DNA of 34,224 bases, taken from Gloeobacterales cyanobacterium ES-bin-313. Its GTDB lineage: Bacteria > Cyanobacteriota > Cyanobacteriia > Gloeobacterales > Gloeobacteraceae. The notes below the pieces were generated by a model that ran no database searches, was not told the DNA's origin, and worked only from the letters and a program-made list of their open reading frames with translations. Positions 66 through 23,954 of this stretch are shown piece by piece. Within the stretch, counting starts at the first letter, position 1; each line of letters starts with the position of its first letter. Position numbers and translations under genes: made by a program. The stretch is from contig JACMLN010000148.1 in assembly GCA_014379585.1 (NCBI GenBank), forward strand, positions 1 through 34,224. Direction: 5' to 3'.

Positions 66-839
66 ATGAAAGCAGTACTGCTAGCGGGCGGGTTGGGCAC
101 TCGCCTCAGTGAGGAAACTCAGATCAAGCCCAAGCCCATGGTTGAAATCGGCAGCCGGCCAATCTTGTGGCACATCATGAAGATCTATTCCGCCCACGGG
201 ATCAACGACTTTGTGATCTGCTGCGGTTACAAAGGCTACGTGATCAAGGAGTACTTTGCCAACTACTTCCTGCACATGTCAGATGTCACCTTCGACATGC
301 GCTTTAACCAAATGAATGTCCACGTGGGTAACGCCGAACCTTGGCGAGTGACCCTCGTAGACACAGGCGAGAACACGATGACTGGTGGGCGTCTGGGGCG
401 CGTACGCGAACATGTGGGGAATGAAACGTTCTGCTTTACCTACGGAGACGGAGTCGCAGACGTGAACATCAGCAAACTGGTGGCTTTTCATCACGAACAA
501 AAAACCCTGGCAACGTTGACCGCTACTCGACCACCGGGGCGCTTTGGCGCTGTCTGTTTGGGCGAGGCGGAGACGAAGATTACGACCTTCCAGGAAAAAC
601 CAGAAGGCGACGGTGCCTGGATCAATGGTGGCTTTTTTGTGCTGGAGCCAGAGGCGATCGATTTTGTTACGGATGACAACACGGTCTGGGAGAAAGAACC
701 TTTGGAGAAGTTAGCCCACTTGGATCAACTCAGTGCTTACAAGCACAGTGGCTTCTGGCAACCCATGGATACTCTGCGCGACAAGCAGTATCTCGAACAA
801 TTGTGGAAAGAAAACCGCGCCCCCTGGAAGGTGTGGTAG
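66..839 (+). CDS. rfbF: Glucose-1-phosphate cytidylyltransferase (RfbF/DdhA)
   Basis: This enzyme makes CDP-glucose from CTP and glucose-1-phosphate, the first step to CDP-linked deoxysugars for cell-surface polysaccharides. It acts in the cytoplasm. The 257-residue length is normal for the family. Visible signatures are the N-terminal nucleotidyltransferase loop AGGLGTRL at residues 7-14, the KPKPMVEIG segment at about 22-30, YGDG with the metal-binding Asp at residue 128, and the family-typical end WKVW. The ATG at 66 follows an AGAGAGAAA purine tract. Codons and length look intact. It starts a run of sugar-precursor genes (rfbC-like, SAF oxidoreductase, lhgO, SDR). A decayed second copy lies at 4784-4927. 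The usual partner, CDP-glucose 4,6-dehydratase (rfbG), is not in the window and may lie upstream. Confidence 0.93.
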   Translation: MKAVLLAGGLGTRLSEETQIKPKPMVEIGSRPILWHIMKIYSAHGINDFVICCGYKGYVIKEYFANYFLHMSDVTFDMRFNQMNVHVGNAEPWRVTLVDTGENTMTGGRLGRVREHVGNETFCFTYGDGVADVNISKLVAFHHEQKTLATLTATRPPGRFGAVCLGEAETKITTFQEKPEGDGAWINGGFFVLEPEAIDFVTDDNTVWEKEPLEKLAHLDQLSAYKHSGFWQPMDTLRDKQYLEQLWKENRAPWKVW

Positions 840-928: not shown

Positions 929-1480
929 ATGATCTTCACTGAGACAAAACTGCCGGGTGCTTTCATCATCGATCTCGAAATGCGCGAAGACGAGCGCGGT
1001 TCCTTCGCACGTACCTGGTGCCAGCGAGAGTTTGCCGATCACGGATTGAAGGCAGATCTCGTTCAGTGCAACCTTTCCTTTAATTACCATGCGGGCACCT
1101 TGCGCGGGATGCACTACCAGCTCGCTCCAGCCGCTGAGACAAAGCTGGTGCGCTGTACCCAAGGCGCAATTTACGACACGATTATCGACCTGCGCCCCGA
1201 CTCGCCCACCTATACCCAGCACTTCGGCATTGAGTTGAGTGCGAAAAATCGACGAGCGCTCTATGTGCCTGAATTGTTTGCCCACGGTTACCAAGCGCTC
1301 ACGGACGAAGCCGAGGTGACTTACCAGGTGGGAGAATTCTATACTCCCGGTGCCGAGCGCGGCCTGCGCTACGACGACCCGGCTTTCGGTATCACCTGGC
1401 CTCTGCCTGTGAGTCTGCTCTCTGTCAAGGACGCAAACTGGCCACGTTTCACATCTATCTTCCAAGGAGTTCGGGCATGA
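929..1480 (+). CDS. rfbC: dTDP-4-dehydrorhamnose 3,5-epimerase family protein
   Basis: This 183-residue cupin-fold sugar epimerase is of the RmlC/RfbC type. Family members epimerise C3 and/or C5 of NDP-4-keto-6-deoxysugars. Visible motifs are GTLRGMHYQ with the catalytic His at residue 62, and a C-terminal GEFYTPGAERGLRYDDP segment carrying the Tyr expected of the catalytic pair. The window has rfbF but no rmlA/rmlB, so the substrate may be a CDP-sugar rather than dTDP-4-keto-rhamnose (inference). A TTGGAG ribosome-binding site precedes the ATG. The 3' end overlaps the next gene by four bases (ATGA at 1477-1480), indicating translational coupling. The symbol is given by family, not by proven substrate. 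Confidence 0.85.
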   Translation: MIFTETKLPGAFIIDLEMREDERGSFARTWCQREFADHGLKADLVQCNLSFNYHAGTLRGMHYQLAPAAETKLVRCTQGAIYDTIIDLRPDSPTYTQHFGIELSAKNRRALYVPELFAHGYQALTDEAEVTYQVGEFYTPGAERGLRYDDPAFGITWPLPVSLLSVKDANWPRFTSIFQGVRA

Positions 1481-2787
1481 TCATCGTCGATACAGCACTG
1501 CAAGCTCGAGCTGAGGCACATCACCCAATCAAAGTTGGCTTGATCGGGGCAGGATTCATGGGTAGGGGCATCGCCAACCAAATCATCAATTCGGTGCCAG
1601 GTATGGCGCTGGTGGCCGTTTCCAACCGCAACCGAGCAGGAGCCGAACGCGCCTACACAGAAGCAGGGATCACCGACTTTCGGACAGTCACCAGTGTAGA
1701 GGCTCTCGAAGCAAGCATCTATCGCAGCCAGCCCGCAGTCACCGAAGATGCCCTGCTCCTCTGCCGCGCTGAGGGTATCGATGTTTTGATCGAAGCGACT
1801 GGGGACGTTGAATTCGGTGCCCAGGTGGTCATGGAAGCGATTGCTTACGGCAAGCACATCGTCTCGATGAACGCCGAACTAGACGGCACCGTCGGGCCCA
1901 TTCTCAAGTTGTACGCAGATCGCGCCGGGGTGATCCTCACCGCCTGTGACGGCGACCAGCCGGGGGTGCAGATGAACCTGTACCGCTATGTGAAGAGCAT
2001 CGGTCTCACGCCCTTGCTTTGCGGCAACATCAAGGGGCTACAGGATCCTTATCGCAATCCAACCACGCAAGAAGCTTTTGCTAAACGCTGGGGTCAGAAG
2101 CCGCACATGGTAACGAGCTTCGCTGACGGCAGCAAGATTTCCTTCGAGCAGGCGATTGTGGCCAACGCCACAGGCATGACTGTAGCAAAGCGCGGGATGT
2201 TGGGCTATGACCACAGCGGCCACATCGACGAACTGACTGGTCGCTACGATGTCGATGTGCTGCGCTCCCTGGGGGGCATCGTCGATTACGTGGTCGGCAG
2301 CAAGCCTGGTCCAGGGGTGTTCGTCTTCGCGACCCACGATGATCCCAAACAGCAACACTACCTCAACCTCTACAAGCTGGGAGAAGGTCCACTCTACAGC
2401 TTCTACACCCCGTACCACCTTTGTCACTTCGAGGTACCCCTCTCAGCTGCTCGGGTCGTCCTCTTCGGCGACGTGGTCATGGCGCCGCTGGGTGCTCCCA
2501 AAGTCGATGTGGTGGCCACAGCGAAGATCGACTTGCCCGCCGGAGCGACTCTCGATGGTATCGGCTTCTACATGACCTACGGCCAATGCGAAAAGGCTGA
2601 GGTGACCGCCGCCCAGGATCTTTTGCCCATGGGGGTGGCGGTGGGCTGTCGCCTAAAGCGAGCCGTCCCCAAAGATCAAGTACTCACCTACGCAGACGTA
2701 GAGTTGCCCCCAGGTCGGCTTGTGGATCGCTTGCGTGCCGAGCAAAATGCCCACTTCGCTCCAGCTAGGATTCCCGCCGCTGTCTAA
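1477..2787 (+). CDS. NAD(P)-dependent oxidoreductase with C-terminal SAF domain
   Basis: The protein has 436 residues. An N-terminal Rossmann fold is marked by VGLIGAGFMGRG at about residues 19-30, followed by a homoserine-dehydrogenase-like NAD(P)-binding domain. The last ~90 residues resemble a SAF (antifreeze/sialate-synthase-like) domain. Proteins of this architecture are often found beside rfbF and rfbC in surface-polysaccharide clusters, where they probably reduce or oxidise an activated sugar or a small carbon donor. The exact reaction is not established from sequence. The start is an ATG inside the rfbC stop (ATGA overlap) with AAGGAG about 8 bases upstream. It is part of the same transcription unit as rfbF-rfbC and shows no truncation. 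Confidence 0.82.
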   Translation: MIIVDTALQARAEAHHPIKVGLIGAGFMGRGIANQIINSVPGMALVAVSNRNRAGAERAYTEAGITDFRTVTSVEALEASIYRSQPAVTEDALLLCRAEGIDVLIEATGDVEFGAQVVMEAIAYGKHIVSMNAELDGTVGPILKLYADRAGVILTACDGDQPGVQMNLYRYVKSIGLTPLLCGNIKGLQDPYRNPTTQEAFAKRWGQKPHMVTSFADGSKISFEQAIVANATGMTVAKRGMLGYDHSGHIDELTGRYDVDVLRSLGGIVDYVVGSKPGPGVFVFATHDDPKQQHYLNLYKLGEGPLYSFYTPYHLCHFEVPLSAARVVLFGDVVMAPLGAPKVDVVATAKIDLPAGATLDGIGFYMTYGQCEKAEVTAAQDLLPMGVAVGCRLKRAVPKDQVLTYADVELPPGRLVDRLRAEQNAHFAPARIPAAV

Positions 2788-2813: not shown

Positions 2814-4703
2814 ATGAAAAAGATTGAAGGTAGGTGTCTAGAGCAGTCTCAATCGACTAGTCCCATGGGATCTGTTCGTTCTGCAGAAGAAAGGCTTTTG
2901 ACGATCGTCATCCCGACCTTCAATCGTTCAACGCAGTTGGATAAGCAACTCAACTGGCTGGCACGGGCGATTAAGGGCTTCGAGGATCAATGTGAGATCC
3001 TCATTTCTGACAATTGCTCCACTGACGACACCCAGAGCGTGATTGCCCGATGGCAATCGGTCTTTACCGAGCTGCCGTTCCGGTCAAACCGCAACGACCA
3101 AAACCTAGGGATTCTGGGGAATATCGCTTATTGCATTCAGGCAACCCGAACCCCCTATCTCTGGACGATTGGCGACGATGATTCTGTCGAAGAAAAAGCC
3201 TTGCCCTACGTCCTCAATAATCTCAAGGCACGTCCGCAATTGACCCTGCTTTTCTTGAATTTTTTGGGGCGCGACAAACATACAGGCCAAGTGATGGGAG
3301 AGCGCTGGTTAGATGTCGAGGAAGAAACCGAAGCGACCCAAGGCAAAACCCTCTTTCAGCACTGCCTAAAACACAATCTCGGCGGAGTGATTTTCCTAAC
3401 TGCCACGATCCTGCACACAGAACTAGCCCAAACGGCTCTCAAGCAGTGGCCTGCCAGCATCAACAATTGGGCTGGGATGGCTTACTGGTCAGGATACTGT
3501 GCTTCTCAAGGAAGCATGTTGGTTTCTGGCGAAATATTCATCGAGTGCCTCCTCAATGCCGGTTCTTGGCAGGCAGACACAAAGTGGAAGTTCATGAATG
3601 GCTTTAAGCACATTCCTGAACTCTTTCTCAAGCTACAGCAGCTAGATTATCCCCGCTGGTTCTGCCGACGCATGGTCTTGAGTACAGTTAAGCAGAATCT
3701 CGCTAACCTCCGTGGGGAATTTTCCAGTTCGCCTTTGGCACCAGTTTCGGTTTTGGTGGTCTACTGGTGGTGGGTGACACGGGCGGCGCTGGAACTGTTT
3801 TTGTTTAATTTCTTGGAAATCCAACGCTGGTTGCCCTGGCTCTGGGCTGAGTTGTTGTACAGAATTGACCGCCTCAAACATGCTACCCAGTTGCCAAAAC
3901 TGCAACCGAAGGATCAGCACATTGTCAATGCTTGCAACAAAGAAGGGGCTTTTGTGACTTCACTGAGCGCTCTCTCTCTTGCCACGACTCCAGCCCTGAT
4001 TGAGGCTGCCAAGGCTGAACTGCTTGAGTTGGAGCGCCGCGCACAGCTCAGTGCTGACTTGACGCACGCAACCTCGACCCATCCTCAAATCCTCACCGTC
4101 ACACATTTACCCGTCTTCACCAACTGGGCGGGTGATCAGAGACTACTCGACATCGCCGAGAACTATATCGGTCTACCCGCCAAATTCCAGGGTGTACATC
4201 TGCGCCGCGATTTCGCCCATGATCGACCGGCCACTACGGAGTTATGGCACTGTGACCGCGAAGACCGCCGGATGTTGAAACTGATTGTCTATCTCGAAGA
4301 CTGCAGCGAGAGCAATGGCCCATTTGAGTACATTCCTAAGACAAAGCCTCGATCTCCCCGATTGCCTCTGTACATCAAGTTCAATGCGCTGAAAACCTCG
4401 CTGATGGGCCTCGACAACGACCAAATGCAGAAGTTCATACCGAAATCCAACTGGCAGCTATGCCCTGGAACGGCGGGGACAGTGATCTTTGTCGATACCG
4501 CCAATACTTATCATCACGGCAAGCTGCGCAGCAAGGAACGGGCTGCACTCTTCTTTGTGTACACAGCCCAGCAGCCAGAAAAGCCCGAATTCTGTACTCA
4601 GTACTCGGATCAGACCTACACAGGCCAAGCAAGCGTGCAGCATCATTCCAATTCTGATAGAGATGCAATTCCCAGGCCTGATGCTAATCAGCAGCACATC
4701 TAA
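2814..4703 (+). CDS. Fusion: GT2 glycosyltransferase + Fe(II)/2-oxoglutarate (PhyH-like) oxygenase
   Basis: This 629-residue protein appears to join two enzymes. The N-terminal part (about 27-270) is a family 2 glycosyltransferase, with IVIPTFNR at 31-38, SDNCSTDD at 65-72 and the metal/nucleotide motif GDDD at 120-123. A middle stretch (about 300-420) is hydrophobic in part and not recognised. The C-terminal part (about 440-610) looks like a phytanoyl-CoA-dioxygenase-type oxygenase. It has WHCDRED with the HxD iron ligands His479 and Asp481, a distal His at 567/568 in TYHHGK, and Arg576 spaced as expected for 2-oxoglutarate binding. The likely role is to add a sugar and hydroxylate or oxidise a glycan or sugar substrate (inference). 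The start is the ATG at 2814; a second in-frame ATG at 2865 would still keep both domains. It is followed by the rfbF remnant and lhgO. Confidence 0.8.
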   Translation: MKKIEGRCLEQSQSTSPMGSVRSAEERLLTIVIPTFNRSTQLDKQLNWLARAIKGFEDQCEILISDNCSTDDTQSVIARWQSVFTELPFRSNRNDQNLGILGNIAYCIQATRTPYLWTIGDDDSVEEKALPYVLNNLKARPQLTLLFLNFLGRDKHTGQVMGERWLDVEEETEATQGKTLFQHCLKHNLGGVIFLTATILHTELAQTALKQWPASINNWAGMAYWSGYCASQGSMLVSGEIFIECLLNAGSWQADTKWKFMNGFKHIPELFLKLQQLDYPRWFCRRMVLSTVKQNLANLRGEFSSSPLAPVSVLVVYWWWVTRAALELFLFNFLEIQRWLPWLWAELLYRIDRLKHATQLPKLQPKDQHIVNACNKEGAFVTSLSALSLATTPALIEAAKAELLELERRAQLSADLTHATSTHPQILTVTHLPVFTNWAGDQRLLDIAENYIGLPAKFQGVHLRRDFAHDRPATTELWHCDREDRRMLKLIVYLEDCSESNGPFEYIPKTKPRSPRLPLYIKFNALKTSLMGLDNDQMQKFIPKSNWQLCPGTAGTVIFVDTANTYHHGKLRSKERAALFFVYTAQQPEKPEFCTQYSDQTYTGQASVQHHSNSDRDAIPRPDANQQHI

Positions 4704-4931: not shown

Positions 4932-6152
4932 ATGACAAGCTACGACTTCACCATCATCGGCGGCGGTATCGTCGGACTCTCGGTCGCTATGGCGCTTACC
5001 GAACGCTATCCCAGCACCCGTCTGCTGGTGATCGAAAAAGAATCGTCATGGGCCGCACACCAAACTGGTCACAATAGTGGCGTTATCCACTCAGGGGTTT
5101 ATTACAAGCCCGGCAGCCTCAAAGCACGCTTCGCCAGGGAAGGCAACCAAGCCGTAGTCGATTTTTGCCAGCGCCACAACATCGCCTACGACATCTGCGG
5201 CAAGGTAATCGTCGCCACCGAGAGCCACGAATTGCCGTTGCTGGACAACTTGCTTTTGCGCGGCCAAGCCAATGGCATTCCCGTTGAGCGCATCGGCGCT
5301 GAACAATTGCATGACATTGAACCCCACGTGCGCGGACTTGCCGCTCTACGCGTGCCGACAGCAGGCATTGTCCACTATGGACAGATGGCTGCCGCCTATG
5401 CGCGCATCGTGGCCGAACGTGGCGGCGATTTGCAACTCGGCACTCGGGTCTTGAATCTAGCCACCACCCCCGAAGGCATGGCAATTGAAACGGACAAAGG
5501 CAGCTTCTTCAGTCGCTATCTGGTCAACTGTGCAGGACTATTTTCTGACCGGGTAGCCCAGTCCTGCGGTCTGAAGACTGAGGCGAAGATCGTTCCGTTT
5601 CGCGGAGAGTACTACACCTTGATCCCTGAAAAGCAACACCTTTGTAAGCACCTGATCTACCCTGTTCCCAATCCCGACTTTCCATTTTTGGGCGTGCATT
5701 TCACGCGCATGATCGATGGCAGCGTCCACGCCGGCCCCAACGCGGTACTCGCCCTCTCACGGGAGGGTTATTCCTGGGGACAGATCAACCTTGGTGATAC
5801 TGCCGAGGTACTCAGCTATGGCGGTTTTTGGAAACTGGCCGCCCGCCACGCAGATGAAGGAGTGAAAGAAATGGTTCGCTCGCTCTCGAAGGCCGCTTTT
5901 GTGCGCTCCTTACAAAAGCTCATCCCGGAGGTGCGACCCGAGGATGTTGTACCAGCGGGAAGCGGAGTGAGAGCGCAAGCCCTCACCCAAGCAGGCAAGC
6001 TTGTGGACGACTTTTTGTTCGCCACAGGCACCAACTCTTTGCACGTGCTCAATGCACCTTCTCCGGCTGCAACGGCCTCAATCCCGATCGGCAAAGCGGT
6101 CATTGAACGCATTCCCGAATCGGTGACGAGTCAACTCACCCTGAAACGATAG
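4932..6152 (+). CDS. lhgO: L-2-hydroxyglutarate oxidase (LhgO/YgaF family)
   Basis: This FAD-dependent enzyme oxidises L-2-hydroxyglutarate to 2-oxoglutarate, passing electrons to the membrane quinone pool or oxygen. The 406-residue length is typical. Visible features are the FAD-binding Rossmann motif IIGGGIVGLSVA at residues 8-19, the family block HNSGVIHSGVYY near 47-58, and the C-terminal GSGVRAQ block near 341-347 before the second FAD contact region. It starts 4 bases after the rfbF remnant and ends 14 bases before the SDR gene, so it is inside the polysaccharide operon. It lies near the GT2-oxygenase fusion, which is expected to use 2-oxoglutarate. It could supply that cosubstrate or act on a related 2-hydroxyacid (inference). 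LhgO homologues in surface-glycan clusters are known, but their role is not settled. Confidence 0.88.
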   Translation: MTSYDFTIIGGGIVGLSVAMALTERYPSTRLLVIEKESSWAAHQTGHNSGVIHSGVYYKPGSLKARFAREGNQAVVDFCQRHNIAYDICGKVIVATESHELPLLDNLLLRGQANGIPVERIGAEQLHDIEPHVRGLAALRVPTAGIVHYGQMAAAYARIVAERGGDLQLGTRVLNLATTPEGMAIETDKGSFFSRYLVNCAGLFSDRVAQSCGLKTEAKIVPFRGEYYTLIPEKQHLCKHLIYPVPNPDFPFLGVHFTRMIDGSVHAGPNAVLALSREGYSWGQINLGDTAEVLSYGGFWKLAARHADEGVKEMVRSLSKAAFVRSLQKLIPEVRPEDVVPAGSGVRAQALTQAGKLVDDFLFATGTNSLHVLNAPSPAATASIPIGKAVIERIPESVTSQLTLKR

Positions 6153-6166
6153 GAACTTTACCTGCT

Positions 6167-7252
6167 ATGAAAATTCTTGCAACCGGTACGGAAGGGTACA
6201 TCGGCACCCTGCTTGGCGGCGTTCTGCTTGAGCGCGGACACGAAGTCACTGGCCTCGACACTGGCTTTCATAAAGTGGGCTGGCTCTACAACGGTGTGCG
6301 CCAAGCCCCCTTGCATTTGCGCAAGGACATCCGCATGCTCACAGAGGAAGATCTCTGGGGGTACGATGCCATTGTTCACCTAGCAGAACTCTCCAACGAT
6401 CCAGTCGGCGAACTCAACCCGACGATCACCTACGACATCAACCACATCGGCACCATCGAGTTGGCCAAAATGGCCAAGCGTGCTGGAGTGAGCCGATTTA
6501 TCTACATGTCCAGTTGCAGCGTCTACGGTACGGGTGACGAGTCCTACAGCACCGAGTCCTCCGAACTCAATCCCCAGACGGCTTACGCCCACTGCAAAGT
6601 GCTCGTCGAGCGGGATTTGACCGCCATGGCTGACGAGAACTTCTCTCCCACATTCATGCGCAACGCCACAGCCTACGGCCCATCACCGCGTATGCGTTTC
6701 GACCTCGTCGTCAATTCATTGGCAGGTTTTGCCTGGACAACCAAAGAAATTCGCATGGAAAGCGATGGAACACCTTGGCGACCTCTAGTGCATGTCCTAG
6801 ATATCTGTCAGGCGATTTACTGTGCAATAGAGGCACCACGAGATGTTGTACACAACCAAGTGTTTAACGTTGGTGACAACGACGAGAACTACCAAGTGAA
6901 GGATGTTGCACGCATCATTGCTGAGACTTTTCCAGGCTGCAGGCTCGTCTTAGGTTCAAGCTCCAACGACAAGCGCAACTACAAAGTGAACTTCGACAAA
7001 ATCAGCACCCAGCTGCCGAACTTCAGATGCCGCCGCAATGTCGCTTTGGGCGCTCGGCAACTCTTGGAGATCTTCTCGAAGATCCAATTGGACAAGGAGC
7101 TTTTTGAGTTTCGTGGCCACACACGTCTCAAGCAGATCAAATACTTGCTTGAGACTGGCCAGATCGACAATGACTTGTTCTGGTCGGAGTACATTGCCAC
7201 CGAACAGGATAAAACAGCACTCAATCCGCAAGTTCTGACTGCGGCGGAGTAA
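6167..7252 (+). CDS. NAD-dependent epimerase/dehydratase (extended SDR)
   Basis: This 361-residue extended short-chain dehydrogenase acts on nucleotide sugars. The N-terminal NAD-binding motif is GTEGYIG (residues 7-13), a variant of the usual GGxGxxG. MSSCSVYG carries the catalytic Ser region, and Tyr140/Lys144 in YAHCK form the YxxxK pair. A GDNDENYQVKDVA segment in the C-terminal half is typical of sugar-specific members. The substrate cannot be read from the sequence. Given the rfbF/rfbC neighbours it probably dehydrates, epimerises or reduces a CDP- or dTDP-linked sugar. AGGAA about 13 bases upstream could serve as ribosome-binding site. A strong hairpin follows 21 bases after the stop. 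Confidence 0.85.
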   Translation: MKILATGTEGYIGTLLGGVLLERGHEVTGLDTGFHKVGWLYNGVRQAPLHLRKDIRMLTEEDLWGYDAIVHLAELSNDPVGELNPTITYDINHIGTIELAKMAKRAGVSRFIYMSSCSVYGTGDESYSTESSELNPQTAYAHCKVLVERDLTAMADENFSPTFMRNATAYGPSPRMRFDLVVNSLAGFAWTTKEIRMESDGTPWRPLVHVLDICQAIYCAIEAPRDVVHNQVFNVGDNDENYQVKDVARIIAETFPGCRLVLGSSSNDKRNYKVNFDKISTQLPNFRCRRNVALGARQLLEIFSKIQLDKELFEFRGHTRLKQIKYLLETGQIDNDLFWSEYIATEQDKTALNPQVLTAAE

Positions 7253-7478: not shown

Positions 7479-9575
7479 ATGAATACTCTCTTAATGCTCC
7501 TTGCGGCCTTTCGTCGCCACCTTTCCTGGGTTGTCATCGCCTTTTGTACCATCGTCGCTACGGCGATGGCGGTCGGCTTTTTCACCACGCCAGTCTATAA
7601 GTCCCAGATGCGGGTTCTCTTTTTGGACAACTCCCCGCGCATCAAGTTTCTCGAAGGTTTCGCCGAGGGTGCTCCAGTGACGACGAGCAGCGATCCCCTG
7701 GAAAACAAGATGGCACTGATCAAAACCGACGCCATCTTAGGTACGGCGATCGCCAAGTTTAATTTACGAAACCCTCTGACGAGTAAAGCCTTCACCTCCG
7801 AAGAGTTGCGTTCAGGAATCGCCATTGAGGGCATCCTAGGCACCGATATGGTCGATATTGCCTTCACCAACTCCGATCCAAAGATTGCCAGCCATGTCGT
7901 CACTTCCCTTGCCCAGACGCTTATTGACGACACCATCGCTAGCAATCGCGCACGGGCTACGTCGGTACGAGAATTTATTGAAAAGAAACTGCCCGATGTT
8001 GAACGCAAGCTCAAATACACTGAGCAGAAACGCCAGCAGTACCAGAAGCAATCAGGTTCGATAGAAATTACCGCCGAAACCCAGGGGGCAGTAAGAGAAC
8101 TTGGTGAACTAGAAGCATCCAGTCGTCGATTGCAGGCGACCAACAATGCCCTCAGCTCACAAATCAGCCAGCTTCGGCAGCAGTTGGGGGGTAAATCAAC
8201 TCAGCAAGCAGTGATCGACGTGGCGGTGAGTGCCGACCCCGATCTACAGGCCAATCGGCGTGCCCTTGCGGATCTCGATGCCGAGATTGCCAAACAGAGT
8301 GCGCAATTAGGTGAGCGCCATCCCCTGATGATGAACTATCGTGAGCAGCAAAAAGAGCTTAAGCGGTTGATCTCCAACCGAGCCAAGGCACTGGGCAGCA
8401 CACGTACCGGTGCAGTTGATCCAGTTTCACAGACGATCACCGGTCAATTGGCAGACCTTGAAGCGCGTCTAAGCGGTGGTCGGCAGGAACTAGCCAGTAT
8501 CCAAGCTTCTATGAAGAACTCCCGAAGTCACTTGGCAACGCTGCCAGAGCGACAAGTGACCCTGGCGCAACTAGATCGCCAAGTGCTCCTTGAAACGACC
8601 TCCTACAACCTGCTCGCCAGCCGACTGGAGGAAGCCAAGATCGCTGAAGCACAGAGCTTCGCCAACGTCCGAGTCGTCGATCCAGCCAGCCAGCCGAAAA
8701 ATCCGTTTTGGCCTAATTTTCCGCTGCTGGCAGTTGCTGGCAGCGTGCTGGGCATCGGAGCTGCTTCTGGCCTCGTAGCGCTATTGGAATCTGGACGCCG
8801 GAGTATCGATTCTCAAGCAATGCAAGAACTGTTGCAGGTACCAGTGCTCGCCTCTTTACCCCTGCTGGAATCTTCTTCAGGGAAGACCATCCAGGCATGG
8901 AGTCAAGAAAGCTACCGGATGCTCTGTACAAATTTGCGTTTTTTGGTGCCCATCAATTCCCACAAAGCCTCTGTGTTTGTCGTCAGCTCGCCTGTACCCA
9001 ATGAAGGTAAGTCCACCGTTGCTACCAACCTAGCTCGGGCAATTGCCCGTTCTGGGCGGCGTACCTTGCTTATCGATGGCGATCTGGTGCGACCTAGCCT
9101 GAGCGAAACCTTTGATCTAGATGATGAAGGAGGGCTGGCACTCTGGCTATTTCAGCGTCCCAGCAGTGATGACATTAGAGATTATGTACAACATACCCAG
9201 TTGAATAATCTAGACGTGTTAGGGGCTGGCAACGTGCAACTGGCTGACTCCGGCAGTCTGCTCGATGAAGTGACCGTCGATGCCCTGATCAGTTCCCTTG
9301 AGCGCCACTACGATCAGATCATCATCGACACACCACCCTTGGCGGGTTATGCCCACGGCTTCAGCTTTGCAGCTCGCTCCAATGGGGTGCTATTGGTGCT
9401 TAGGCCAGGCCACGCAGACATCGACGATATTAAGCACATCAAGCAGGCTCTCGACCGCAACGGCATTCCCCTACTTGGTACTGTTTTTAACGGCATTGAC
9501 ACTGAGAGCCTATCGGTGAGCCACTACTATGACCGTCCCAGCAAGCCCAAAAAACAACTGCTACTTCCTGAATGA
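7479..9575 (+). CDS. Wzc-like polysaccharide co-polymerase with BY-kinase domain
   Basis: This 698-residue inner-membrane protein controls chain length and export. The N-terminal Wzz domain contains a first membrane segment at about residues 15-35. It is followed by a long periplasmic coiled-coil region (about 150-400) and a second membrane segment at about 410-440. The cytoplasmic bacterial tyrosine kinase domain then runs to the end. Walker A is PVPNEGKST with Lys511, Walker A' is LLIDGDLVRP near 530, and Walker B is IIIDTPP near 616. The fused Wzz-kinase order is as in proteobacterial Wzc. The C-terminal tail has only a Tyr pair in SHYYDRP, not the usual Tyr-rich cluster. The next gene is the Wza-like export protein, its normal partner. 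Confidence 0.92.
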   Translation: MNTLLMLLAAFRRHLSWVVIAFCTIVATAMAVGFFTTPVYKSQMRVLFLDNSPRIKFLEGFAEGAPVTTSSDPLENKMALIKTDAILGTAIAKFNLRNPLTSKAFTSEELRSGIAIEGILGTDMVDIAFTNSDPKIASHVVTSLAQTLIDDTIASNRARATSVREFIEKKLPDVERKLKYTEQKRQQYQKQSGSIEITAETQGAVRELGELEASSRRLQATNNALSSQISQLRQQLGGKSTQQAVIDVAVSADPDLQANRRALADLDAEIAKQSAQLGERHPLMMNYREQQKELKRLISNRAKALGSTRTGAVDPVSQTITGQLADLEARLSGGRQELASIQASMKNSRSHLATLPERQVTLAQLDRQVLLETTSYNLLASRLEEAKIAEAQSFANVRVVDPASQPKNPFWPNFPLLAVAGSVLGIGAASGLVALLESGRRSIDSQAMQELLQVPVLASLPLLESSSGKTIQAWSQESYRMLCTNLRFLVPINSHKASVFVVSSPVPNEGKSTVATNLARAIARSGRRTLLIDGDLVRPSLSETFDLDDEGGLALWLFQRPSSDDIRDYVQHTQLNNLDVLGAGNVQLADSGSLLDEVTVDALISSLERHYDQIIIDTPPLAGYAHGFSFAARSNGVLLVLRPGHADIDDIKHIKQALDRNGIPLLGTVFNGIDTESLSVSHYYDRPSKPKKQLLLPE

Positions 9576-9582
9576 GTGTGCT

Positions 9583-10647
9583 ATGAAAAGAATTTTTTGG
9601 TTGTCCCTATGCCTTGCCTGCACCAGCTCCATGGGTGAGGTTCTAGGTGCCCCAACCCAGCAAGCTGCAGCTCCAAGCTTCAACGTATCGGTCATCAGCC
9701 AGGGCTATCGCCTGCGACCAGGCGACAAGATCCGCATCGATGTACTGGGTTTCACGGATCTCTCCCGTGAGCAGACGATCCTGCCTGACGGCACGATCAA
9801 CATCATGTACCTGGGAGCCGTCGGAGCCGCAGGGCGTACCCCGGATCAGTTGTCGGATCGTCTGCGCAGCCAGTTCACTGGCATTCTCAAAAAACCGATA
9901 ATTGCCGTTTCGGTCGTGGAAACGCGTCCGCTACAAGTCAATGTCGTTGGCGAGGTACAGCGCCCAGGGCCGCAGGTTTTTATTCCCCAGAACACGGCTT
10001 TCGGAGGTGCCCAGGGTAGAGCCAATCAGCGGTTTGGCACGGAGCGAATCTCCAACGCCCTGTCTCTAGCAGGGGGTGTTACTTCCCGTGCCGATGTGCG
10101 CAAAGTCACCCTGACTCGCCAGCTCACGGATGGCAGCAAACGCACCGAGACGATCAATCTTTGGGAAGCCCTACAAAACGGGAATTTCGAGGGTGATTTG
10201 CCCCTTACGGATGGAGACACCATACAGGTAGCGGCTTTGCCTGTAAGCGATCCGTTAAGCGATGAGATGTCCCAAAAAGTAGCGACTTCTTCCCTGGCTC
10301 CCTTAACGATCAATTTGCAGGTAGCTGGCGAAGTGAAGCGACCTGGGAGCATCGACATCGACCCGCGCTCAAATTTGCTCAATGCCATCTACGCAGCAGG
10401 TGGCCCGTCCAATGAGGCCAATCTCGAAGACGTATCGATTGCTCGCATGCTCCCCAGTGGAAAAATCGAGCGCGTTGCCCTCAACCTCAATAAAGTCTCC
10501 GATGGCAGCCAAAAAGTCCAAGTGCGCAACGGTGATGTCGTCTTCGTTGGGCGCGGTGGCAACTTTACAGCCTCGGATCAGAGCCGCTCATTCCTAGGAC
10601 CATTGGGCGACATACTGCGAATATTCTTTCCATTCCGCATTTTCTAG
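9583..10647 (+). CDS. Wza-like polysaccharide export protein with SLBB domains
   Basis: This is an outer-membrane polysaccharide secretin-like protein, 354 residues from the ATG at 9583. A longer open frame reaches back to 9529 but overlaps wzc, and the 9583 start gives a clean signal peptide (MKRIFWLSLCLAC..., likely cut near residue 23). A lipoprotein cysteine at residue 13 is possible but the lipobox is poor. The polysaccharide-export domain begins at YRLRPGDKIRIDV (about 42-54). One SLBB domain begins near residue 117 (VNVVGEVQRPG), with a large insertion, and a second begins near 243 (LQVAGEVKRPGSI). The hydrophobic end LGDILRIFFPFRIF may be the outer-membrane-spanning helix. It starts 7 bases after wzc and probably works with it as the export channel. 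Confidence 0.9.
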   Translation: MKRIFWLSLCLACTSSMGEVLGAPTQQAAAPSFNVSVISQGYRLRPGDKIRIDVLGFTDLSREQTILPDGTINIMYLGAVGAAGRTPDQLSDRLRSQFTGILKKPIIAVSVVETRPLQVNVVGEVQRPGPQVFIPQNTAFGGAQGRANQRFGTERISNALSLAGGVTSRADVRKVTLTRQLTDGSKRTETINLWEALQNGNFEGDLPLTDGDTIQVAALPVSDPLSDEMSQKVATSSLAPLTINLQVAGEVKRPGSIDIDPRSNLLNAIYAAGGPSNEANLEDVSIARMLPSGKIERVALNLNKVSDGSQKVQVRNGDVVFVGRGGNFTASDQSRSFLGPLGDILRIFFPFRIF

Positions 10648-11706: not shown

Positions 11707-13110
11707 ATGCAACAGATTCTACTCAAACCCTCAGGCGGTTGGTTCGCCTTCTTCACGATCGCTGGTTGCGTCTTGGCTGGAGCCGCTCTGGCCAAATCAC
11801 CCTTGCTGGTCGGATCTGCGGCTTTAGTCGCCCTGGGGGTAGTATGTTTGATTCTTAAATTTGAAGCAACCGTAATTACGCTTTTGGTACTACGTTCAAG
11901 CCTCGACCCATTCGGCAGTTACGGCCTGACGGGTGCTCTGGCCTTGCTGATTGATGCGGTGACAATTATTTTCCTGTTCACTCGACTGATTGCTCGCAAA
12001 CCAATCCAAGGTGATTGGTTGTGGGGAGTATTAGCACTCTTTATCGGTCTAATGGCCTTCTGGCCCATCGCTATGTTTCAGGGCTGGCTTGGGTTCCGTG
12101 CCGATGCTGGGCTCCTTGGTTTATCAACGTTGGGTGCGAATTGTTGGCGCGAATGGATTCGTATTCTCTCCTTTCCGATGATCTACGGACTCGTCATGCA
12201 GCTAAAAGGCCGTATTGCTCCCGAACGGCTATTGAGTCTTGTAATGCTCTCGCTCATCGTGCCATTGACTGTTGCTTTCTTGCAAATGTTCGCTAATGGC
12301 GCTCTGCCGATGCTTTTGCAGACGATACAGGAGGGCCGCGCCTATGGTACCGTCAGTCACCCCGATGCTTTCGTTCTTTACTTGCTGATGATGATGGGGA
12401 TGTCTTGGTGGAAATTCCGCCTCTCTGGTCACTGGCGATGGCTTGTGTTGATGGCGGTGTTGGTTATCCCCTATACGGGAACCAAAACGCTTGGTGGATT
12501 GGGTATGGCGGCGATCTTTCTAGCGGTGCTGATTCTGCCACGGCTCAATGCAAAGACGCTCATCGGTGCATCCATTGCAGTGGTATTAGTGATCGGTTCT
12601 TTTGCTGCCTCCCCAGCAGGGCAGGAGCGACTGGAGTCGCTGCGCCAGACACCCATCCTAAATGGCCAACTTGACATAAATAATGTTGTACATTTAGCAA
12701 GTGTAACAAATAACTCGTTTGTCTGGCGATTGGCACAGTGGACTTACTTGCTCGATGCCTGGAAAGCCTCTCCTGTCTTTGGTTACGGACTTGAAACTTC
12801 AAGTGCACTTTCCCCGTTGCATAACGGTGCCCACAACGACTACGTGCGTGCTCTAGCAGAGACAGGCATCGTTGGGCTAGGGCTTTACCTAGGATTATGG
12901 GCTGCGGTGCTTACCCGGTTGATGAAGCTGTGGCGCGACTCACGTCTGAACTCGAGCACCCGCGAGTTGCATCTATCGCTCGTTGCAATCTGTATATCGT
13001 TACTATTTGCTGGGCTCACAAATCACATGTGGGGCACAACGACGTTCTTTTTTTATTGGTGGACAGCTCTGGCAGTTGCAGGCTGGGATTTTGAGGAGAA
13101 AACTTCATGA
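11707..13110 (+). CDS. O-antigen ligase/polymerase-family membrane protein (Wzy-like)
   Basis: This 467-residue integral membrane protein has about 10-12 hydrophobic segments. The large periplasmic loop near residues 300-385 holds the family signature: a RLAQWTYLLDAWKASPVFGYG segment, then AHNDYVRALAETGIVG with the conserved His near 376. Family members polymerise lipid-linked repeat units (Wzy) or ligate glycans (WaaL). With Wzc/Wza encoded just upstream, polymerase is the better guess. It lies 9 bases after the pyrophosphorylase and overlaps the next GT2 gene by ATGA (13107-13110). It is the only polymerase candidate in the window. Confidence 0.87.
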   Translation: MQQILLKPSGGWFAFFTIAGCVLAGAALAKSPLLVGSAALVALGVVCLILKFEATVITLLVLRSSLDPFGSYGLTGALALLIDAVTIIFLFTRLIARKPIQGDWLWGVLALFIGLMAFWPIAMFQGWLGFRADAGLLGLSTLGANCWREWIRILSFPMIYGLVMQLKGRIAPERLLSLVMLSLIVPLTVAFLQMFANGALPMLLQTIQEGRAYGTVSHPDAFVLYLLMMMGMSWWKFRLSGHWRWLVLMAVLVIPYTGTKTLGGLGMAAIFLAVLILPRLNAKTLIGASIAVVLVIGSFAASPAGQERLESLRQTPILNGQLDINNVVHLASVTNNSFVWRLAQWTYLLDAWKASPVFGYGLETSSALSPLHNGAHNDYVRALAETGIVGLGLYLGLWAAVLTRLMKLWRDSRLNSSTRELHLSLVAICISLLFAGLTNHMWGTTTFFFYWWTALAVAGWDFEEKTS

Positions 13111-15178: not shown

Positions 15179-15253
15179 TCGACCACACCAGAAAAAACCG
15201 ACTGGCCAGTGATCGGCAATGATCTCGTATTGTCTAGCAAAAAGGATCTGTTT

Positions 15254-17071
15254 GTGAATGTTCTAAAGAATCTGAAGTGGCAACGTCTAGTGACACCTCG
15301 TTTGTTATTTGGTGGAGTGAATCGCTGGCCGCTGTACCTCGGTATTGGTTCGATGGTGCTCTCTTCGTTGTTTGATGGGATTGGCATCGCCCTGATGATT
15401 CCGTTTTTAAAGCTGGTGTTAAGTGAGAGTAGTACGCTAACCTTGCCAAATGTTGGCTTGCTCCAAGGGTTGAGTGTTTGGTTGCAGTTGCAGAGCAAGG
15501 ATATATTGGTGGGCTTATGTACTCTGGTACTTTTGACTTCCTTATGTTTAAAGGCATTCTTCTTCTTTACAGCTTCTAAGCAGACTACAGAATTTGAAGA
15601 GTCAGTGACAGACTCTTTACGTCAAAGGCTGTTTGCTAACTACCTGGGCGCGCCAAGCCGTTTTTACGATACTTCAAAGCTGGGGACAATTACCAATAAC
15701 CTTCAAGTAGAAGTGAGCAGTGTTGGGATTACCCTGAGTTGGCTTGCTTCTTCCTTGACCAATCTGCTGACCTTAGCAGCCTATATCGTGACTTTGTTAG
15801 TCGTCTCCTGGAAACTCACCCTGGTCATCGTCGCACTGATTGTATTTGTCGGTTACGCAATGACCTATTACCTGCGCTCAATCGAGAAGTCCGGCGATCT
15901 CGTCACTGACCTTGCGCGAAGCCTGAGCGTGCGTATTCTCGAAACGCTCTCCGGCATCCGCGTCGTCAAAGTATTTGGAACTGAAAAACATGAGCAAGAG
16001 CGATTCTCGAAGCTTTCAGAAGACTACAGAGATGCTAATACCAAGTTACGTTCCTTGCAACACGTCATCGAACCGCTTACGGAGCTTATCACCCTAGGCA
16101 GCGGTATGCTCATCCTGGCAGTAGCCTATATTACTCTTATTCAACAGGGAGTGCTCGGTGCCGCTGAATTAATGCTTTTCATGCTGGTACTGATCCGCAG
16201 TGTTCCAGTTCTGCGTCGCATTAACCATGCCCGTTGTTACATCCTCGGAAATCTCTCTGGTATTCAAAAAGTAGCTGAGGGATTGTTGCTCTCGACGCAA
16301 TACCCAGCCCCAAATGGCAGGTTGCCCGTCAATGGTTTGAAAAGCGAGATCTGCTTCAACAAGGTTGGTTTCTCCTACGATGGTCAATCCAAAGTATTGA
16401 ATGGATTCGATCTAGAAGTCCTCAAGGGAGAGACTGTAGCGCTCATCGGCACTTCGGGAGCTGGCAAATCGACGGTGGCTGCTTTGCTACCGCGATTTTA
16501 CGAAGTCACCAGCGGATCGATCACACTTGACGGGATCGACATCCGCGAACTTGACCCCGTTTCCCTGCGGCAACACATCGGTATCGTCAGTCAAGACACT
16601 TATATCTTCAACGCGACTATTTTCGAGAACATCGCGTATGGCCTGCCGAACGCCACGCCAGAACAAGTACGCGAAGCAGCACTTCTAGCCAATGCCCACG
16701 AATATATCCAGCAGTTGCCAGAAGGTTATCAGACCTTTGTTGGCGACCGAGGGGTGCAATTATCCGGTGGTCAGCGACAGCGCCTCTCGATTGCCAGAAC
16801 ACTGCTACGCAATCCAGAAATTTTGATCCTTGATGAGGCAACTTCAGCCCTCGACTCACAGTCGGAAGCACTCGTGCAGGAGGCTATAGAGCGGCTGCGT
16901 TGCAACCGTACAGTCATTGTGATTGCCCACCGCCTTTCGACGGTTCGCAACGCCGACAAGATTGTTGTCATGGAAAAAGGCAAGATCGTGGAGGTGGGTG
17001 AGCATACACAATTGCTTGCCAATGAAGGTGCCTACTGGTCTTTCCACAATTTGCAGACTATCGCTCGATAA
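15254..17071 (+). CDS. ABC exporter, MsbA/PglK-like (possible lipid-linked glycan flippase)
   Basis: This half-transporter is fused in the order TMD-NBD, 605 residues from a GTG at 15254 with AAAGGA 7 bases upstream. An alternative GTG at 15209 would add 15 residues without a good ribosome-binding site. Six membrane helices lie in the first ~300 residues. The ATPase has Walker A GTSGAGKST near 399, signature LSGGQ near 503, Walker B ILILDEATSALD near 524 and an IAHRLST switch His near 559. It would act as a homodimer in the inner membrane. No Wzx-type flippase is in the window, so it is the best candidate for moving the lipid-linked repeat unit, as PglK does. It could instead export lipid or peptide. 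Confidence 0.88.
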   Translation: MNVLKNLKWQRLVTPRLLFGGVNRWPLYLGIGSMVLSSLFDGIGIALMIPFLKLVLSESSTLTLPNVGLLQGLSVWLQLQSKDILVGLCTLVLLTSLCLKAFFFFTASKQTTEFEESVTDSLRQRLFANYLGAPSRFYDTSKLGTITNNLQVEVSSVGITLSWLASSLTNLLTLAAYIVTLLVVSWKLTLVIVALIVFVGYAMTYYLRSIEKSGDLVTDLARSLSVRILETLSGIRVVKVFGTEKHEQERFSKLSEDYRDANTKLRSLQHVIEPLTELITLGSGMLILAVAYITLIQQGVLGAAELMLFMLVLIRSVPVLRRINHARCYILGNLSGIQKVAEGLLLSTQYPAPNGRLPVNGLKSEICFNKVGFSYDGQSKVLNGFDLEVLKGETVALIGTSGAGKSTVAALLPRFYEVTSGSITLDGIDIRELDPVSLRQHIGIVSQDTYIFNATIFENIAYGLPNATPEQVREAALLANAHEYIQQLPEGYQTFVGDRGVQLSGGQRQRLSIARTLLRNPEILILDEATSALDSQSEALVQEAIERLRCNRTVIVIAHRLSTVRNADKIVVMEKGKIVEVGEHTQLLANEGAYWSFHNLQTIAR

Positions 17072-19976: not shown

Positions 19977-20017
19977 AGTTGGTCACATCGGTTAACTCTC
20001 ACATGGAGCCAACCAAA

Positions 20018-21409
20018 ATGCGCAAAGAAATAGCTGGGGCGGTGATCGCGACGGCGAGCTTCATCGCGGCTGGAGCCTACGCCCAGAAAATTATGGTTGC
20101 CAATCCACAGCTCAAAATCATCGAACCTGCTCCAGAAAAGACCAGCTTTTCAGCAGAACTGAGCGCTTACCCCGTACAACCAACTTCCCGTACCCGCTCA
20201 ACGCCGGAAATCTTTGAGCGCACCAGACCAACTTTCCCCATCGACTCCGAGATCGCCAACGCCAGACTGCAAATTATCCAGTTTTATAAAGACAACGGCT
20301 TCGACATCAGTCTCACCAGCGACGAGACGAACTCGATGCTGCCCCAAAACTGGAGCAAACGGACTCCAGAGCCACTAACGGGGGATTATCGGATGCCTTA
20401 CTCGGTCGATAGCCCTTTTTACCAACGCATTCCTAAAGACTGGAAAAAGCTGGAATTTCCGGTCAAAGGCTACTTTCAAAGTAGCAATATCTCAACCTTG
20501 GGAGCAGCAGGCGATGGCTCCGATGGATTCGGTATCGGCCTCGTGATTGGCCGTGCCAAAGACCCGGTTCGCAAGCTACAGCAGCGCTACATGGAGAAAG
20601 ATCCGAAAATCAGTCTTGAAAAAGATCAAGCCAACGGTCGGCTTTTGGGGCTGGAATGTCCAGTTCTCCAACGCGATGGAAGCTTCACCACCACGCGCAT
20701 TCCCGATGCTGAGAATTTTCGACTTGTCGGCAACCAGGTGGCTGGTGTTGTTGCCTACGGCGTACCGCGCAACGCCTTCGACCGCGCCGTGATCTGGATC
20801 GATGATGCCACCAAAAAAGCAGCCACCACCTGGCGCTCCTTCGAGCAGTGCAACGATCCGGCCATGGGGACTCAGGCAGGGAACTGGACGGGGGACTATA
20901 TCGTTTCTGAACAGTTGCCGAGTCTCGGGGATCGTGGTGGTGTCAATGCTGCCAACATGGCGGATCTGCCCAGGCTGATTCGCGCCGGGGAGTTGACAAA
21001 TCCCAATCAACCGATCCGCCATGTTGTCAGTGGACCATCCCGTGCGAGTGGCCAGAAGTTGTGGAAGGCGGCCATCTACCCTGGCCGCAATTGGGACAAC
21101 ACCATCGACGGATTCAACGGTGGATTGCTCCCCTACGGCATGTTATTACAGCTCGACCCAAACGTTGATCTCCAAAAAATGTATCGCGAAAAGAAACTAT
21201 CATTGCCAGCATATCGCCTGCTAGAAGCGATGCAGAACTACGGGTGGATGTGCGACGACTCAGGTGTGCGCGACATGGATTTTAAAGGTCACTTCAGTAA
21301 TCGGGAACTAGAACCCTACAAAGGCAGTTGGGCTGTAGCTGAAGAAGTGATGAGCGTCGTTAAAAACGCCAAGCTCTACATTGTCGCACCACTGGTTAAG
21401 CGCGGCTAG
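20018..21409 (+). CDS. Secreted protein of unknown function
   Basis: I do not recognise this protein with confidence. From the ATG at 20018 (GGAG 9 bases upstream) it has 463 residues. It starts with a clear Sec signal peptide, MRKEIAGAVIATASFIAAGAYAQ, cut after AYA. Upstream in-frame ATGs (for example 20003) would weaken the signal peptide. The mature part is rich in Trp, Pro and Gly. It contains blocks such as GVVAYGVPRNAFDRAVIW, a PIRHVVSGPS stretch followed by a KLWKAAIYPGR block, GLLPYGMLLQL and LEAMQNYGWMCDDSG. The last blocks recall a pattern I associate with uncharacterised secreted proteins carrying HALR...WPA...PPMG...ALKxYGMxxADNG motifs, but this is tentative. Its place between glycosyltransferases suggests a periplasmic or extracellular role with the polysaccharide, such as binding or modification. 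Confidence 0.75.
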   Translation: MRKEIAGAVIATASFIAAGAYAQKIMVANPQLKIIEPAPEKTSFSAELSAYPVQPTSRTRSTPEIFERTRPTFPIDSEIANARLQIIQFYKDNGFDISLTSDETNSMLPQNWSKRTPEPLTGDYRMPYSVDSPFYQRIPKDWKKLEFPVKGYFQSSNISTLGAAGDGSDGFGIGLVIGRAKDPVRKLQQRYMEKDPKISLEKDQANGRLLGLECPVLQRDGSFTTTRIPDAENFRLVGNQVAGVVAYGVPRNAFDRAVIWIDDATKKAATTWRSFEQCNDPAMGTQAGNWTGDYIVSEQLPSLGDRGGVNAANMADLPRLIRAGELTNPNQPIRHVVSGPSRASGQKLWKAAIYPGRNWDNTIDGFNGGLLPYGMLLQLDPNVDLQKMYREKKLSLPAYRLLEAMQNYGWMCDDSGVRDMDFKGHFSNRELEPYKGSWAVAEEVMSVVKNAKLYIVAPLVKRG

Positions 21410-23288: not shown

Positions 23289-23954
23289 ATGAAAAACCCT
23301 GTAATTGCAGTTCAAGACAGGAGTCAGCAGCGTCCGCATTGGCAGTTTCTTGCCAAGCGGGTACTGGATTATGGCGGTGTTGGGCTTGGCTTACTCCTCC
23401 TCGCTCCAGTACTGCTCATTATTTCTCTGCTTATCTATATCGATTCCCCTGGTCCCGTATTTTTCCGTCAGGAGCGAAAGGGGCTGAGCGGGCGCACTTT
23501 CCGGCTTTGGAAATTTCGCACGATGGAAGTAAATGCAGAAGCGCGGCTTCACGAACTCGAAGCACTCAATGAATGTGAAGGCGGCGTACTATTCAAGCTC
23601 AAATCCGATCCGCGTGTCACACGGATCGGGCGGATCTTGCGTTCGACGAGTCTTGATGAGTTGCCACAACTTTTCAACGTGTTGCAAGGCCAAATGAGTT
23701 TGGTGGGTCCTCGACCGCTACAATTGCGTGACTGTGAGCGAGCATTCAAGTTCGACCACCAAGCCTTCGAGCAACGACTGACCGTTCTGCCTGGTATCAC
23801 TGGTCCATGGCAGATTGCTGGGCGCAGCAACCTGAACTTTGAGCAGATGTTGAAGCTTGACTGCGATTACATCGAGCAGTGGTCATTACCCCTCGACCTG
23901 ACTATCTTGCTGAACACGCTACCCGCGGTTCTTAAGCGTAGCGGCGCGTACTAA
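23289..23954 (+). CDS. Priming sugar-phosphate transferase (polyprenol phosphate phosphoglycosyltransferase)
   Basis: This 221-residue monotopic phosphoglycosyltransferase puts the first sugar-1-phosphate on undecaprenyl phosphate and so starts repeat-unit assembly. A membrane re-entrant helix lies at about 28-50. Family blocks follow: [22 protein letters not shown] (58-79), a [15 protein letters not shown] block, [23 protein letters not shown] near 119-141, and [14 protein letters not shown] near 160-173. The short form lacks the N-terminal four-helix and CoA-binding-like domain of WcaJ/WbaP and is the minimal PglC-like core plus the usual tail. It is the only priming enzyme in the window, which supports a lipid-linked pathway. 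The sugar may be glucose, galactose or a derivative. Confidence 0.93.

Follow-up and report, generated by a model that had tools for sequence, protein, structure and literature searches.

In this study, we observed a single open reading frame of 629 amino acids (positions 2814..4703, ATG start) that joins a glycosyltransferase (GT2) to a PhyH-like Fe(II)/2-oxoglutarate (2OG) oxygenase in Gloeobacterales cyanobacterium ES-bin-313. The window, that is the whole stretch of DNA that was analysed, comprises 34,224 nucleotides of contig JACMLN010000148.1, and all features described here lie on its forward strand. With a probability of roughly 55%, we read this frame as the product of a natural gene fusion that joined, in frame, a GT2 and a glycan- or sugar-oxidising PhyH enzyme of a CDP-sugar module, which are elsewhere encoded by separate adjacent genes; the fusion lies within a Wzy/Wzc exopolysaccharide cluster. 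This reading builds on the two domains, their predicted folds, an invariant active site, the conserved pairing of the two families and the gene context observed here.

A preliminary description, made from the sequence alone, had placed a GT2 and a PhyH-like domain in one open frame; the frame was found again, and both domains score above their Pfam gathering scores. Glycos_transf_2 (PF00535) covers residues 30-141 (E 3.3e-16, 60.1 bits vs a gathering score of 23.3). PhyH (PF05721) covers residues 443-562 with a weak match that is still above the gathering score (E 3.5e-5, 24.6 bits vs 22), and a close PhyH homologue (locus L032) gave no PF05721 match at E 0.001. The GT2 half with its GT-A fold (about residues 26-330, 2889..3803) carries IVIPTFNR at residues 31-38, DNCS from residue 66 and GDDD at residue 120. 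Residues D66, D122 and D123, which belong to the conserved nucleotide Asp and DxD motifs, are invariant in an alignment of 17 sequences. This half is 39-48% identical to stand-alone GT2 homologues and is the counterpart of the gene at the alr2828 position of the heterocyst envelope polysaccharide (HEP) island. The oxygenase half (about residues 331-599, 3804..4610) shares 42-52% identity with the separate oxygenases encoded next to GT2 genes. The frame of 629 residues is not a chance ORF, since each half can be aligned along its length, at about 40-52% identity, with one of two separate families. Neither half stands out from its family, GT2 or PhyH, in sequence or in predicted fold.

The search for homologues of each half covered a fixed set of 390 genomes from the class. 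A scan of the genome contigs with a single protein as query recovered nothing; an alignment-based scan recovered the loci. None of the homologues of either half recovered from these 390 genomes was fused to the other half. The PhyH homologues are stand-alone frames, mostly of 270-375 amino acids, and the strong GT2 homologues are stand-alone frames of about 300-380 amino acids. Oxygenase loci from named cyanobacteria numbered 80; in 71 of them a GT2 gene lies directly upstream of the PhyH gene as a separate ORF, and none has the fusion. About 65 of the 80 carry the pair within a HEP island, in the order cytidylyltransferase, L-2-hydroxyglutarate-oxidase-like protein, epimerase, GT2, PhyH, a further gene, DRL, GT4 and Wzc; the further gene between PhyH and DRL is RmlC in those loci that were read. 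Tandem copies of PhyH (two or three) and also of GT2 occur in some HEP islands (L149, L150, L182 and others). In Stenomitos and Lyngbya sp. HA4199-MV5 (f17 genomes), GT2 is directly followed by a PhyH gene of the same clade as the window protein, but there the pair consists of separate genes outside a HEP-type cluster, and DRL is found elsewhere in the genome.

The two families also co-occur across genomes. A GT2 homologue was present in 25 of 25 genomes with a close PhyH relative (GT2 overall: 34/389) and a DRL homologue in 33 of the 34 GT2 genomes (DRL overall: 118/389); with the heterocystous family left out, the same counts were 5/5 and 12/13, and p-values for them are indicative only because the genomes share kinship.

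In the window, eight HEP-type homologues (cytidylyltransferase, FAD oxidoreductase, epimerase, GT2, PhyH, RmlC, DRL and Wzc) lie within 9.6 kb, in a rearranged order. Ahead of the fusion gene are a glucose-1-phosphate cytidylyltransferase of the RfbF type (66..839, alr2825 position; TIGR02623, 460.7 bits vs 300; 77-82% identical to HEP-island genes), an RmlC-type dTDP-sugar 3,5-epimerase (929..1480, alr2830 position; TIGR01221 above the cut-off) and a DRL-type NAD(P) oxidoreductase with SAF domain (1477..2787, alr2831 position; PF21135, E 8e-54). The latter keeps 73-81% identity elsewhere in the class, across very distant cyanobacteria and far beyond the genomes that carry the GT2-PhyH pair; 119 of the 390 genomes have it, and Gloeobacter violaceus has two copies. 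Behind the fusion gene follow an L-2-hydroxyglutarate-oxidase-like FAD oxidoreductase (4932..6152, alr2826 position; NF008726, 586 bits vs 299; 60-63% identical to the HEP-island gene), an NAD-dependent epimerase/dehydratase (6167..7252, alr2827 position; PF01370; 62-65% identical to the HEP-island gene) and, assigned by domain matches, a Wzc-type chain-length regulator/tyrosine kinase (7479..9575). The remainder of the cluster encodes a Wza-type export protein (9529..10647; PF02563 and SLBB domains), a Wzy-type polymerase/ligase (11707..13110; PF04932), a HepA/MsbA-like ABC transporter (15209..17071; best NCBIfam model NF045513, HepA family, 545 bits, below the cut-off of 725), a polyprenyl-phosphate sugar transferase (23289..23954; PF02397; HepC model NF045514, 96 bits, below the cut-off of 140), a nucleotidyltransferase and further glycosyltransferases. 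A frame of 476 amino acids in the middle of the cluster (19979-21409) matched neither a Pfam nor an NCBIfam model at the thresholds applied, and between 24000 and 28000 the GC content falls to about 0.42-0.46 across genes for a GT4, a PIG-L deacetylase and a methyltransferase. The polysaccharide operon of the preliminary description is thus borne out, whereas the status of the pair as a conserved two-gene unit of HEP islands had escaped it.

The gene context makes a sugar or a lipid-linked glycan a plausible substrate of the oxygenase. We infer the activity, the order of the steps, the donor sugar and the site and kind of oxidation as follows. The GT2 half would work on the cytoplasmic side of the inner membrane and transfer a sugar to the growing polyprenyl-linked repeat unit; this sugar is probably the product of the adjoining cytidylyltransferase, epimerase/dehydratase, RmlC and DRL enzymes. 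The PhyH half would modify this sugar or its direct acceptor, by hydroxylation or another oxidation that draws on Fe(II), O2 and 2-oxoglutarate. The repeat unit would then be flipped, polymerised and exported via the Wzy-, Wzc- and Wza-type proteins of the cluster.

Variants of the module bear on the sugar. In Chrysosporum bergii (L153, 6817-7950) and in genome G089 (L033, 8124-9236), a CDP-glucose 4,6-dehydratase gene replaces the L-2-hydroxyglutarate-oxidase-like and epimerase genes, and GT2 adjoins cytidylyltransferase, this dehydratase, RmlC and DRL. From this substitution, the shared product of these modules would seem to be a sugar derived from CDP-glucose, and the two replaced enzymes would appear to serve the sugar pathway and not 2OG supply. 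Indeed, the L-2-hydroxyglutarate-oxidase-like neighbour as a supplier of 2OG to PhyH was considered and is weakened: Chrysosporum replaces it together with the epimerase and keeps PhyH, and in G089 both neighbours are replaced and no PhyH gene lies beside GT2. Since G089 carries GT2 without an adjoining PhyH, GT2 does not need the oxygenase, which speaks against our main reading. In the window genome, no CDP-glucose 4,6-dehydratase scored above the cut-off.

Alternatively, the oxygenase might act before the transfer, on the nucleotide sugar or a small precursor, and the fusion might only keep the two proteins equal in amount or hold them jointly at the membrane. Some members of the PhyH family act on small molecules that have little to do with glycans, a point against our main reading. 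Many PhyH enzymes take small substrates (e.g., proline or ectoine), the neighbouring genes make a nucleotide sugar, and some HEP islands combine two or three tandem PhyH genes with only one or two GT2 genes, all of which would suit an action ahead of the transferase. However, the close PhyH clade tracks GT2 more tightly than it tracks the sugar-making genes, and DRL is found in many genomes without either. We consider this alternative possible, yet rather unlikely.

GT2 end and PhyH start meet without a linker at about residues 323-340 (3780..3833): in the alignments, the GT2 half stops where shorter GT2 homologues stop, and the PhyH half starts at the usual PhyH start. In-frame TTG codons are present at residues 330, 334 and 340 of the junction, so that a separate translation of the PhyH half may occur. 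In 78 measured GT2-PhyH pairs, the intergenic distance is -1 to 167 bp, mostly about 50 bp, and the separate genes are therefore near enough to fuse. In a few relatives the genes abut or overlap by one base, where one base change could join them, and the fusion was seen in one draft assembly only (198 contigs); both points would fit two adjacent genes read as one through an assembly or base-calling artefact. The junction is clean: neither a stop codon nor intergenic sequence is left behind and the frame stays the same, and in the full-length model a continuous helix over residues 309-359 spans it unbroken, which makes such an artefact very improbable. The fusion appears to be an event of one lineage, a point that the preliminary description had also missed. 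In the trees, the window protein forms a long single branch for both halves, and the trees are therefore compatible with transfer as well as with vertical descent.

Both folds are predicted with good confidence. The AlphaFold2 model of the PhyH half (pLDDT 84.6, pTM 0.83) is a double-stranded beta-helix, the fold on which the preliminary description had staked its oxygenase assignment, and Foldseek matched it with probability 1.00 to PhyH enzymes at a query TM of about 0.42-0.53. The best PDB matches were the PhyH-type 2OG enzymes proline hydroxylase ProH H11, EvdO2, EctD, GriE, HygX and SnoN. The full-length model (pLDDT 86.4, pTM 0.67) places a GT-A fold, a helical stretch and the beta-helix in succession and matches GT-A enzymes, e.g., TarP, SpsA and WrtF; with its modest pTM, the mutual placement of the two domains is not firm.

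The active site is complete, with the residues at the positions that had been proposed (H479-x-D481, H567/H568 and R576). The HxD motif H479-C480-D481 (4248..4256) provides two predicted metal ligands, H567 (4512..4514) is the predicted distal metal ligand, and R576 (4539..4541) is predicted to bind the 2-oxoglutarate carboxylate. In a sequence profile, the WHxD, distal His and Arg of the oxygenase half align with those conserved in the ectoine hydroxylase EctD. All 115 aligned sequences, the window protein included, have H479, D481, H567 and R576 unchanged, so that the triad is retained throughout the homologues; neither of the two outcomes that would have refuted the preliminary description thus came about. 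H568 is replaced by R or K in five of the 115 sequences, and H567 is therefore the likely metal ligand of the two. Although its PhyH Pfam score is barely above the cut-off, a PhyH half reduced to a catalytically dead remnant that only scaffolds GT2 deserves hardly any credence, as this invariance would not be expected of a dead domain.

The joining of a glycosyltransferase and a 2OG oxygenase is not without precedent, even if this GT2-PhyH fusion was found only here. The human collagen lysyl hydroxylase LH3 (PLOD3) is a single chain that begins with a GT-A-like glycosyltransferase and ends with an Fe(II)/2OG oxygenase bearing the HxD...H motif (PMC6082870). LH3 differs from the window fusion in that its domains belong to other families, a middle domain is added and the substrate is a protein; superposition of the full-length fusion model on LH3 was poor (TM about 0.25). 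The view that no characterised enzyme has this domain pair thus holds for the exact families, but not for GT-A and 2OG hydroxylase in general. In another cyanobacterium, one frame of about 1,900 amino acids (L213; genome G598, C1 5707000-5714000) is arranged as PhyH-PhyH-GT4-GT2 and represents a second kind of PhyH-glycosyltransferase fusion. Like the window protein, it has PhyH and GT2 in one frame, but PhyH comes first and in two copies, and a GT4 is added. Searches that started from the window protein did not retrieve it, and it is hence regarded as an independent architecture. Of ten long PhyH frames that were examined, the L213 frame among them, most combine PhyH with a kinase, methyltransferase, UbiA/TPR, short-chain dehydrogenase or acyl-CoA-binding/carrier domain. 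At locus L211 (genome G142, C1 1000000-1005000), tandem PhyH genes occur, one of them fused to a methyltransferase domain. The literature that was searched contained no paper on a PhyH-glycosyltransferase fusion. EvdO2, HygX and SnoN act on sugars or sugar-bearing antibiotics. They share fold and catalytic set with the window PhyH half, but are stand-alone enzymes of actinobacterial secondary metabolism with 12-18% identity to it.

The host belongs to the same family as Gloeobacter (Gloeobacteraceae), but to a different genus. The GC content of the window (51-52%) seems odd next to 60-62% in Gloeobacter, but is typical of this host genome (0.51 for the window contig vs 0.49-0.53 in other contigs). 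The DnaJ encoded on the window contig has its best matches in Gloeobacteraceae (63-68%), nearest to Gloeobacter, and its identity declines with kinship. Since both DnaJ and GC fit the host, the contig is unlikely to be foreign and contamination of the bin is unlikely; tetranucleotide correlations added little to this check. In the host genome (96% complete), no HetR_C match was found, while the same search gave matches in four relatives, and no nifH scored above the cut-off. By these searches, the genome shows neither the HetR nor the nitrogenase expected of a heterocyst-forming host.

In Anabaena sp. PCC 7120, the HEP island runs from alr2825 (glucose-1-P cytidylyltransferase) over alr2826 (hypothetical), alr2827 (epimerase/dehydratase) and alr2828 and alr2829 (each given as "unknown protein") to alr2830 (rfbC), alr2831 (NAD(P) oxidoreductase), alr2832 (glycosyltransferase), alr2833, alr2834 (hepC) and alr2835 (hepA), according to an expression study (PMC4390870). 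In a second, independent table, alr2828 is entered under GT2 (PMC2211374). The order seen in about 65 of the loci is that of this island; by this order, the GT2-PhyH pair matches alr2828 and alr2829, and alr2829 is assigned as PhyH. HepC is next in line at locus L107 (355 bits, above the curated cut-off). The HEP islands of Anabaena PCC 7120 (by gene order), Nostoc, Scytonema, Cylindrospermum and further heterocystous genomes have the same two families in the same order as the window, and they share with it the adjoining genes for cytidylyltransferase, L-2-hydroxyglutarate-oxidase-like protein, epimerase, RmlC and DRL. In these islands, however, GT2 and PhyH are separate, whereas they are fused in the window, which also differs in gene order, transporter and sugar transferase. 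With its HepA and HepC scores below the cut-offs and a host without HetR, the window cluster resembles the HEP module, with which it has the CDP-sugar genes in common, but is not classed as a HEP island.

The Gloeobacter family comprises thylakoid-less cyanobacteria. Much of the HEP sugar module is present in a Gloeobacteraceae genome. That GT2 and PhyH are fused in a cyanobacterium which is distant and has no HetR independently supports joint action of the two. The separate, neighbouring GT2 and PhyH genes within the HEP cluster of many heterocyst-forming cyanobacteria suggest that an oxygen-dependent step helps to build the oxygen-barrier polysaccharide of heterocysts. It may even be that hydroxylation by the PhyH at the alr2829 position, with O2 and 2OG, is needed for this polysaccharide, that its maturation is gated by O2 and by 2-oxoglutarate, the metabolite of nitrogen starvation, that what the neighbouring GT2 makes is the direct substrate of the oxygenase, as the fusion would show, and that the chemistry is not bound to heterocysts; this wider scheme is speculative and we hold it to be doubtful as a whole. 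In summary, concrete functions can now be predicted for alr2828 and alr2829, and one of the two would depend on O2, within the very cluster for the O2 barrier.
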